Assembly (NCBI GenBank): GCA_016125185.1 | Contig: WGMG01000006.1 | Coordinates: forward strand, 62,001-126,000 | Origin: Armatimonadota bacterium | Lineage (GTDB): Bacteria > Armatimonadota > Fimbriimonadia > Fimbriimonadales > Fimbriimonadaceae | DNA length: 64,000 nt | Direction: 5' to 3' | Shown: piece after piece, positions 22,007 through 25,439 of the stretch | Layout: every line of letters starts with the position of its first letter | How positions within the stretch are numbered: the first letter of the stretch is position 1 | The notes under the pieces: generated by a model | The model's database searches: none | Seen by the model: the letters and a program-made list of their open reading frames with translations, nothing else | What the model was told of the DNA's origin: nothing | Translations under genes and position numbers: made by a program

Positions 22007-23242
22007 GTGCGAATACTCGTAATCGGCAGCGGCGGACGGGAACATGCTCTTGCTTGGAAGCTAGCCGAAGAAGCCGAAGTGATCTGCGCCCCCGGGAATG
22101 CCGGTATCACCGAGGACGTAGAGTGTGCGAACGTCTCGACCATGGATTTCGCGTCGATCCTTGGGCTGGTGAGAGACCGCGCCGTCGACCTGGTGGTTGT
22201 CGGTCCAGAAGATCCCCTCGTGATGGGGCTAGCCGATGCCCTGCGAGACCAAGGGATTCCCACTTTTGGGCCTGGTCGAGCGGCAGCCCAGTTGGAGGGG
22301 TCGAAGGCATTTTCCAAAGCAATGATGATGCGCGCCGGAGTTCCGACGGCGGGCTACCAAACCTTTATCGATGGGACGGCGGCAAAAGAGTATTGCCGGC
22401 GGATGTTCGGCGAGGAGCGGCAAGTGGCACTGAAGGCCAGCGGTAACGCCCTGGGCAAAGGCGTCATCGTTTGTTCCATGCTAGAACAGGCACTGGAGGG
22501 TGTCGATCAATTGCGAGCCCTGGGCGAGGCGGGTCGAACGCTGGTCATCGAAGAACGTCTGATCGGTCGCGAGTTTAGTTTGCTGACGCTGGTTTCGGAC
22601 GACGGCATCCACAGCCTGCCGATCGCCCAAGACTACAAGCGCGTGTTTGACGGCGACGAAGGGTCGAATACAGGCGGAATGGGCTCATACTCGCCGCTCG
22701 ATTGGGTTGAGCCAGGGCTGGTCGAGCAGGTTGAGAAGGAAGTGGTTTTGCCCGTGGTGAAAGCTCTCCAGGAAGACAAAATTTCGTATCGTGGCGTGCT
22801 GTTCAGCGGTTTGATGGTGACAGCGGACGGTCCAAAGTGCATTGAATACAATGTGCGTTTTGGCGACCCGGAAACGCAAACCGTTTTGCGGCGTCTTGGG
22901 CCAGGATTATCCGAAGCTCTTTTTGCCTGCGCCCAGGGCGCGCCGATTCCGGCGATACCGGTCTTGCCAGACAAAGCCATCACCGTAGTCTTGGCTAGCG
23001 GTGGATATCCGGGTGAATACGCGAAGGGCAAACCAATCGAGATTGGCAAACTTGATCCGGCAGTCAAGGTTTTTCATGCAGGTACGGCGAAGAAGGATGG
23101 CCAACTGGTGACCAATGGAGGGCGTGTGCTAGGAGTTTCGGCTGTGGGGGCCACGGCCGAAGTGGCTCGGAGCCTGGCATACGAAGCCATCGGAAAAATA
23201 TCCTTCGATGGAATGCACTTCCGAAAGGATATTGGAGCGTAG
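22007..23242 (+). CDS. purD: Phosphoribosylamine-glycine ligase
   Basis: 411 residues. The ATP-grasp enzyme joins 5-phosphoribosylamine and glycine in purine synthesis. Motifs: N-terminal IGSGGREHALAWKL, VVGPEDPLVMGLADAL, KASGNALGKGVIV, TGGMGSYSP and EYNVRFGDPETQ. The GTG start follows TAAACT by 6 nt, with no Shine-Dalgarno, a likely leaderless promoter. It heads a group with the proteasome-like and rqcH genes (8-bp gap, then 4-bp overlap). Confidence 0.96.
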   Translation: MRILVIGSGGREHALAWKLAEEAEVICAPGNAGITEDVECANVSTMDFASILGLVRDRAVDLVVVGPEDPLVMGLADALRDQGIPTFGPGRAAAQLEGSKAFSKAMMMRAGVPTAGYQTFIDGTAAKEYCRRMFGEERQVALKASGNALGKGVIVCSMLEQALEGVDQLRALGEAGRTLVIEERLIGREFSLLTLVSDDGIHSLPIAQDYKRVFDGDEGSNTGGMGSYSPLDWVEPGLVEQVEKEVVLPVVKALQEDKISYRGVLFSGLMVTADGPKCIEYNVRFGDPETQTVLRRLGPGLSEALFACAQGAPIPAIPVLPDKAITVVLASGGYPGEYAKGKPIEIGKLDPAVKVFHAGTAKKDGQLVTNGGRVLGVSAVGATAEVARSLAYEAIGKISFDGMHFRKDIGA

Positions 23243-23250
23243 AAGGAATC

Positions 23251-23916
23251 ATGCTTAACCCCTATGACTGGCAGGAGGCGATGAACAATCGCGTTTCCTA
23301 CATCGTTAATCGCATCGAAAAGGGAGCGCCGGTCCTCGCCGTCAGCCTGGAAGCGGGCATCCTGCTCTTCACATATCGACGACAAAGCCCGAAGATTTTT
23401 GAAATCTACGATCGATTGGGCTTCGCCGGTTTGGGGCAGCAGTCGGATATCGAGTCGATCCGTGTGATGGCGGTTGAATTCGCCCATCGAGAGGGCTTCT
23501 CGCGCAGTGAGCAGGATGTGACTGTTCAACGCGTGGTGACGGCGGTGAGCGGGCCGGTTAAGAAGTCTTTCGCCGATTTCTCCTATTCGCCAACGCTTGC
23601 TATGTCGCTTTTTGCCGAACTTGGTTCGACTCCCGAACTAGATTCGTTTTACGTCGTCGACTTTGACGGCGACTACCATCTGCACAAACACTCGGTGGTG
23701 CTGAGTGGACGAAACCAACTAAAGAAGGCACTGCATGAACAGGTTCCCGTCAAAACAACAGTTGAAAAAGCGATCCCGAAGCTCCAGGAACTGTGGGGAG
23801 AAATTGCCAGCTTCGACGGTGAAGAGGAAGTCATTTTGGATGGAATGACGCCAGAGGTGCTGTTGATGGAGAGGAATTCGCTTCGGGAAAACGTTTTTCG
23901 AGAAATCCAGGTTTGA
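23251..23916 (+). CDS. prcA: Proteasome alpha-subunit homologue
   Basis: 221 residues aligning by eye with actinobacterial 20S proteasome alpha subunits. The N-terminal PYDWQEAMNNRVSYI corresponds to PYxxxxEAMxxR. GAPVLAVSLEAGILLF is the core strand pair, SPKIFEIYDRLGFAGLG matches KIxExYDRxGFAxxG, followed by FAHREG…DVT. A C-terminal ~60-residue extension is divergent. Alpha subunits lack the Thr nucleophile, and none is seen. No beta subunit, Pup or ATPase is in the window. AAGGAATC precedes the ATG, and the stop overlaps rqcH. A different Ntn-fold role cannot be excluded. Confidence 0.78.
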   Translation: MLNPYDWQEAMNNRVSYIVNRIEKGAPVLAVSLEAGILLFTYRRQSPKIFEIYDRLGFAGLGQQSDIESIRVMAVEFAHREGFSRSEQDVTVQRVVTAVSGPVKKSFADFSYSPTLAMSLFAELGSTPELDSFYVVDFDGDYHLHKHSVVLSGRNQLKKALHEQVPVKTTVEKAIPKLQELWGEIASFDGEEEVILDGMTPEVLLMERNSLRENVFREIQV

Positions 23917-25439
23917 AGCGAATTCAGTTTGAGGCGATCACTCTTGCGGCAGTCTGTACGGACCTAGCAAAATGTCTGGGTTCCAAAGTTCAGGCCGTTC
24001 GACAGCCGAACGAAAATGAGATTGTCATCGAACTGTATGGAAGGGGTGAAGTTCGTCACCTGTTGATCTGTGGACACCCGGAGTTCTTTCGCGTCCATTT
24101 TGTTTCCCGTCGCCCCACCACCCTGCCATCTCCGCCGCAGTTCTGCACGGCATTGCGGACGAATCTCGTGGGTCTGCATTTAGAGTCGGTGACGATGGTG
24201 AAGAGTGACCGACTGCTTTGCCTCGACTTCGAGGGTTGGAAGTTGTACGCAGAACTCATGGGCAAGCACTCCAACGTCATCTTAGTCAACGAAAATAATA
24301 CGGTGCTGGGAGCCATGAAGTGGGTGGGACGATCGAAGTCCAAACGTCCAATTCAGCCACAACAGAAGTATGAACTTCCGCCTGTACTTCGCGATCGGCC
24401 AGACCTGAGCGAATTCGCCGGACCTCCCACGGGAGTTGAGCCGCGCCAAGTGGTTGCGGAACCTTCTGCATGGAAACCAGGATTGTCCATGTCGGCCGGT
24501 GCCTACCCATTCGATCTCTCTGCTACCTATTCGGACTGGGTTCCGGCTGAGTCCATCAGTCGAGCCCTGGAAGATTTCTACCTAGTCGAGGTTCAGCGGC
24601 AGGAGATCGAAAGCAAGCGGAGTTGGCTTTCGTCGCAGGTCGAACGCGTTTTACTGGCTCGTGAGGTTGCGCTTGCTAGTCTGTTGGAGGCGAGAGAAGC
24701 GGGCGGCAAGGCGGCCAAATGGCAGCGTTACGGAGAACTATTGCTCGCCTACGCGGGCATGGTCGGAGAAGGATCGGAGACGACCGATCTCTTCGATTAC
24801 GACGGTTCCCCACTGACCATCAAGCTCGATCCTGGACTCGACGCTAAAGACAACGCGCTTCGCTATTTCGAAAAGGCGAAGAAGGCAAAAGGGCGGCAAG
24901 GCTTGGTGAGCGAGCAAATCGAGCGAATCGAGGCGAGCGCAGCGGCTTTGCGGAAGACATTGGCTGAGATTGAAGAGGCTCATTCAGTCCAAATCCTTGA
25001 AGGAATCGAGGAGGAGGTGCGGAAGAATCGGTGGCTCCACGAACAACCGGTTGCAAAGGGCGGTACCGCCGAACGCCCCTATGAGGGGCACAAAATCCGT
25101 GAAATCCTGGGCCCAAGCAACTACCGAATCCTGTATGGTGATACCGCCGAAGCGAACGACTACCTGACTCTGAGGGTAGCCAAGAGCAATGACTATTGGC
25201 TCCACGTTCGGGGTCACACCTCGGCACATGTGGTAATCCAAACCCACAACCAGCCCGACAAGGTGGGTAGGGAAGTCCTTTTGGCGGCGGCCAAGATCGC
25301 AGTTCAGCACTCGAACCAAAAGCACGCGGGCTACGTTCCGGTGGACTATACGCTCAAGAAATATGTACGGAAACTGAAGGGTGCGCCGAAGGGCACGGCG
25401 CTTTATGTCAACGAGAAAACCCTTCATGTCGAAGGTTAG
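23913..25439 (+). CDS. rqcH: RqcH / NFACT-family ribosome quality control factor
   Basis: 508 residues in NFACT order: NFACT-N (1-~180) with the conserved Asp-Arg of SDRLLCLDF that bacterial RqcH needs for tRNA binding; a helical/coiled-coil middle (~205-360); and NFACT-R (~385-508) with NDYWLHVRGHTSAHVVIQ and YVNEKTLHVEG. RqcH tags stalled nascent chains on 60S/50S-type obstructed subunits with alanine for proteolysis. TTG overlaps the TGA of the proteasome-like gene (TTGA), so translation is coupled. Confidence 0.9.
   Translation: MKRIQFEAITLAAVCTDLAKCLGSKVQAVRQPNENEIVIELYGRGEVRHLLICGHPEFFRVHFVSRRPTTLPSPPQFCTALRTNLVGLHLESVTMVKSDRLLCLDFEGWKLYAELMGKHSNVILVNENNTVLGAMKWVGRSKSKRPIQPQQKYELPPVLRDRPDLSEFAGPPTGVEPRQVVAEPSAWKPGLSMSAGAYPFDLSATYSDWVPAESISRALEDFYLVEVQRQEIESKRSWLSSQVERVLLAREVALASLLEAREAGGKAAKWQRYGELLLAYAGMVGEGSETTDLFDYDGSPLTIKLDPGLDAKDNALRYFEKAKKAKGRQGLVSEQIERIEASAAALRKTLAEIEEAHSVQILEGIEEEVRKNRWLHEQPVAKGGTAERPYEGHKIREILGPSNYRILYGDTAEANDYLTLRVAKSNDYWLHVRGHTSAHVVIQTHNQPDKVGREVLLAAAKIAVQHSNQKHAGYVPVDYTLKKYVRKLKGAPKGTALYVNEKTLHVEG

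Follow-up and report, generated by a model that had tools for sequence, protein, structure and literature searches.

A proteasome alpha-subunit gene between purD and rqcH in Fimbriimonas probably belongs to a complete, dispersed Pup proteasome

The window analysed here, a 64,000-nt stretch of an Armatimonadota genome of the family Fimbriimonadaceae, carries a gene for a 20S proteasome alpha subunit, prcA, in a run with purD and rqcH (Table 1). Very probably, prcA is the ordinary alpha gene of a complete, dispersed Pup proteasome, and the run is a set of co-transcribed housekeeping genes that arose after a lineage-specific move. What looked like an orphan proteasome subunit is thereby accounted for, since the whole Pup proteasome is present at dispersed sites. 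PrcA would form alpha rings around PrcB beta rings, the Mpa/ARC ATPase would feed the 20S particle, and proteins tagged with Pup by PafA would be degraded as in the canonical system. The proteasome genes would have become dispersed in Fimbriimonadaceae, with prcA coming between purD and rqcH in one small Fimbriimonas clade. Transcription of the three genes as one unit is probable, as is translational coupling of prcA and rqcH in the sub-clade of the window. The neighbourhood would then reflect shared expression of housekeeping genes and would not require any handover from RqcH to the proteasome. For products tailed with alanine, ClpXP is most likely the main outlet, as it is in B. subtilis.

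Table 1. Genes of the purD-prcA-rqcH run in the window and Pup-proteasome genes at other sites of the same genome
Feature	Location	Strand	Basis or remark
purD (phosphoribosylamine-glycine ligase)	window, 22007..23242	+	Pfam GARS_N/A/C; opens the purD-prcA-rqcH run
prcA, 20S proteasome alpha subunit of the Pup (UBact) proteasome	window, 23251..23916	+	PF00227, TIGR03691, Mtb PrcA, AlphaFold/Foldseek
TTGA overlap, prcA stop TGA / rqcH start TTG	window, 23913..23916	+	read from sequence
rqcH (NFACT/Rqc2 family)	window, 23913..25439	+	PF05833, PF05670; B. subtilis RqcH alignment; D-R pair at residues 99-100
dop-pup-prcB cluster	contig C4, 351-353 kb		profile search
prcB	C4:351160-351717		TIGR03690, 127 bits
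pafA	C6:445390-446745		same contig as the window, 360 kb off
mpa	C1:662940-664418		third contig

Identity and fold of the alpha subunit

PrcA, encoded by an open reading frame of 221 aa whose 3' end reads CAG GTT TGA, scored above the cut-off of the Pfam Proteasome profile (PF00227; 26.0 bits, cut-off 22.4) and aligned with TIGR03691 (20S_bact_alpha) with an E-value of 1.3e-18. The latter score of 67 bits is under the curated equivalog cut-off of 139, which is a naming threshold and no biological feature. Judged by this score, the window's alpha subunit appears divergent. TIGR03691 was likewise the best-matching model for prcA orthologues from the canonical operons of outgroups. Mtb PrcA was retrieved with phmmer (E 3.5e-12). 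An AlphaFold2 model of the monomer, built from an alignment of 36 orthologues, reached a pLDDT of 90.8 and a pTM of 0.88, and its best Foldseek matches in the PDB were chains of Mtb PrcA (TM ~0.82 along the whole chain), with ~21% identity to actinobacterial PrcA in the Foldseek alignment. In the model, a helix at residues 4-22 precedes the first strand, as is typical of alpha subunits, and there is no N-terminal catalytic threonine. K48 corresponds to K52 of Mtb PrcA in the phmmer alignment and is invariant in all 36 PrcA sequences; this lysine presumably has a role in the docking of activator tails. HslV or Anbu misread as PrcA was ruled out, since the top profile was that of the bacterial alpha subunit and Foldseek led to Mtb PrcA. 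The proteasome-alpha homologue of the original prediction is thus a true PrcA by both profiles, by the match to the Mtb protein and by fold.

Partners at distant sites

Profile searches of the window's genome (a 4.52-Mb assembly in 13 contigs, 96% complete) detected a complete Pup-proteasome gene set spread over four sites. Besides prcA, prcB is the one further gene with a proteasome fold. Its product retains T1, D17 and K33, and a GTT is found at the predicted cleavage site as read from the sequence. Pup, encoded between dop and prcB, is a protein of 60 aa that belongs to the UBact family (PF20513; 76 bits, cut-off 35) and ends in GQ. PafA, Dop and Mpa/ARC were retrieved with TIGR03686, TIGR03688 and TIGR03689, all three with scores under the curated cut-offs. 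A search for prcB, pup and mpa/arc had been proposed as a check on the original prediction, which left it undecided whether the alpha homologue acts with distant partners or alone. All of these genes were found, together with dop and pafA, each at a distance from prcA. An orphan subunit is ruled out by these five genes, and the conservation of prcB and mpa in particular contradicts an alpha subunit that acts by itself. Since the partners are encoded in the genome, PrcB keeps its catalytic residues and PrcA folds like its Mtb counterpart, the window gene encodes a genuine Pup-proteasome alpha subunit, which is predicted to assemble into alpha rings.

The system resembles the actinobacterial Pup proteasome (Mycobacterium PrcA/PrcB, Mpa, Pup, PafA and Dop) in having all parts by profile search, in the fold of the PrcA monomer and in the catalytic residues of PrcB. 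It differs in gene arrangement, with four separate sites in place of a single locus, in the UBact type of its Pup and in an Mpa that lacks the GQYL tail. With the UBact conjugation systems of Gram-negative bacteria (PF20513, NCBIfam NF033388) it shares the UBact tag, the dop and prcB flanks and the GQ end, whereas in the window's family prcA lies outside the cluster. In the window's genome, UBact/pup (L034:5799-5981) and prcB (L034:5041-5802), both on the minus strand, overlap by 4 nt; the beta gene of this genome thus overlaps pup, and its alpha gene overlaps rqcH.

The Mpa/ARC proteins of Armatimonadota and Bipolaricaulota end without GQYL (L070:1890-3548, minus strand; L134, L138 and L148-L168). 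Instead, they carry recurring tails of the forms ..RRNII, ..RKNII and ..SVI, and the protein of the window's genome ends in ..RSYFEKSIV. In mycobacterial Mpa, the GQYL motif is needed for gate opening (PMC8142254). Gating could therefore differ in these proteins, and the recurring tail may be an alternative gate-opening motif.

Position of prcA among relatives

In 40 of the 80 loci with a PrcA relative, prcB was directly upstream of prcA, mostly with dop and in many cases with mpa and pafA around. These 40 loci come from outgroup Armatimonadota and from Bipolaricaulota/Acetothermia, in the canonical order (mpa)-dop-prcB-prcA-(pafA). In contrast, none of the 36 loci nearest to that of the window had prcB, dop, mpa or pafA near prcA in the locus DNA examined, gene orders in draft genomes being incomplete near contig ends. 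Considering that the outgroups keep the canonical order and the closest loci do not, prcA appears to have left the ancestral proteasome cluster in Fimbriimonadaceae. Several relatives, including the nearest species outside the clade with the run (G005), have prcA after a 5'-nucleotidase-C/peptidase-M28 pair. The record L112 (JADZEW010000018.1) is titled Methanoregulaceae archaeon isolate SJ84; it carries a prcA contig of Fimbriimonadaceae that matches G030:C18 in length and position, and the title looks wrong.

The purD-prcA-rqcH run

The original prediction held that the TGA of the proteasome-like gene overlaps the TTG of rqcH, and this was confirmed, the two genes having 4 nt (TTGA) in common. 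Such an overlap is nothing out of the ordinary for this genome, since 7 of the 59 same-strand neighbour pairs in ~107 kb of the genome could form a -4 overlap, and six of these 7 lie in the window. The gene directly upstream, purD, was unnamed in the original prediction. Only 8 nt separate its end from prcA, which makes the unit purD-prcA-rqcH.

Of the 20 species examined in the genus, seven have the run (the window's genome, G000, and G009, G002, G018, G015, G008 and G001). It was absent from the 13 other species and from all 36 other family and order relatives carrying prcA. In the RqcH tree the seven species form one clade (support 99/96, present in 98% of bootstrap trees); the pairing of prcA with rqcH therefore has a single, recent origin in a small Fimbriimonas clade and is close to lineage-private. 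Gene-order comparison thus bore out the original prediction in part: the pairing is not unique to the window's genome, and it is not conserved beyond one clade, let alone across the family. With the partners present, the monomer fold right and the pairing in more than one genome, none of the observations named as refuting that prediction was fully made, yet the pairing is nearly private to one lineage.

Within the clade, where PrcA identity falls to 66%, the TTGA overlap occurs in three species (G000, G009 and G002), and prcA and rqcH are separated by ~23-92 nt in the other four. The gap between purD and prcA is 7-8 nt in all seven. The genes flanking the run change on both sides between sub-clades, and the run itself is kept as a unit. 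This hints at some selection for it and supports joint transcription of the three genes, among which purD ranks equally with prcA and rqcH. An older purD-rqcH pair into which prcA was inserted has no support, purD not being found beside rqcH in the sister species G005 or in other relatives. Values of dS between the nearest relatives were saturated or nearly so, and dN/dS was therefore of no use.

Chance adjacency, with no shared expression and an incidental overlap, is unlikely. It would agree with the open prcA-rqcH gaps in four species, with the frequency of -4 overlaps in the genome and with promoter and terminator scans of the region, whose signals were no higher than those of shuffles. 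However, a chance arrangement would hardly keep three genes together while both flanks turn over, nor hold the purD-prcA gap so constant.

RqcH and the fate of tailed chains

RqcH, 508 aa from the TTG, matched NFACT_N with an E-value of 6e-68, contains NFACT-R and aligned with B. subtilis RqcH across both blocks (E 3e-51). Its residue 19 pairs with residue 17 of the B. subtilis protein, which makes the TTG start plausible. Like both NFACT domains, the D-R pair expected of an RqcH is present. D99/R100 corresponds to D97/R98, a conserved pair on which the selection of tRNA-Ala depends; substituting it abolishes RQC function (PMC8373112). ClpXP, tmRNA (tag ANNNFAFAA) and MutS2 were also found in the window's genome. 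The set resembles the RQC system of B. subtilis (RqcH/RqcP/MutS2 and ClpXP) in both NFACT domains, the D-R pair, MutS2, ClpXP and tmRNA. It differs in the length of RqcH (570 aa in B. subtilis), in the smaller inter-block segment and in RqcP: an S4 domain search of the 96% complete assembly retrieved no RqcP/Hsp15-like small S4 protein, only four proteins with frames of 206-420 aa that are rpsD-, rsuA-, rluD- and tyrS-like by size or sequence. In the window's family RqcH is short, with an inter-block segment of ~53 residues versus ~99 in B. subtilis. Among the order-level relatives in family f2, most rqcH open frames are ~570-620 aa.

The original prediction took the pairing as a pointer to a pathway from RqcH to the proteasome. 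In such a dedicated link, RqcH-tailed chains would reach the 20S proteasome by recognition of the Ala tail or by PafA pupylation of lysines that tail extension exposes, and the operon would fix the ratio of RqcH to PrcA. We regard this as quite improbable. The adjacency of prcA and rqcH does outlast the divergence of seven species despite changed outer flanks, three of them have the overlap, and almost every member of the order has RqcH together with Pup ligase, Mpa and PrcB; this co-occurrence, however, is so near to universal in the order that it discriminates nothing. The pairing has one recent origin and is missing from the 13 other species and from all further family and order members tested, and purD belongs to the run just as much as prcA and rqcH do. 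Adjacency by itself does not show that prcA and rqcH work together. Substrate choice in the Pup proteasome is made by PafA and Mpa, and the alpha subunit of a bacterial proteasome is not known to take part in it. With prcB, mpa and pafA encoded elsewhere and ClpXP present, a special route is not needed, and a dedicated one has no specific support here. Proteins with an Ala tail are reported to be degraded through ClpXP (PMC8373112, PMC13091356).

A wider version, in which RqcH-tailed chains throughout Fimbriimonadales would be pupylated by PafA and degraded by Mpa-20S, with the operon of one clade co-regulating both ends, has a very small probability. If true, the PafA/Mpa-20S route would parallel, in bacteria, the Ltn1-ubiquitin-proteasome branch of eukaryotic RQC. 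Both prcA and rqcH were detected in 55 of 61 Fimbriimonadales genomes, which makes this order a reasonable place to test whether a bacterial proteasome takes RQC products. A Pup proteasome and RqcH thus occur in the same cell, unlike in the surveyed Actinobacteriota, the bacteria classically associated with a proteasome, where rqcH was found in none of 3,213 genomes (PMC11633108).

That PrcA works outside the proteasome, as a new factor alone or with RqcH, is extremely improbable: its low identity to actinobacterial PrcA and its TIGR03691 score under the cut-off would fit, but it is the sole alpha homologue in a genome keeping prcB, mpa, dop, pup and pafA, its outgroup orthologues lie in the canonical operon, and between the window's genome and G009 it is better conserved (83%) than RqcH (67%) or PurD (70%).
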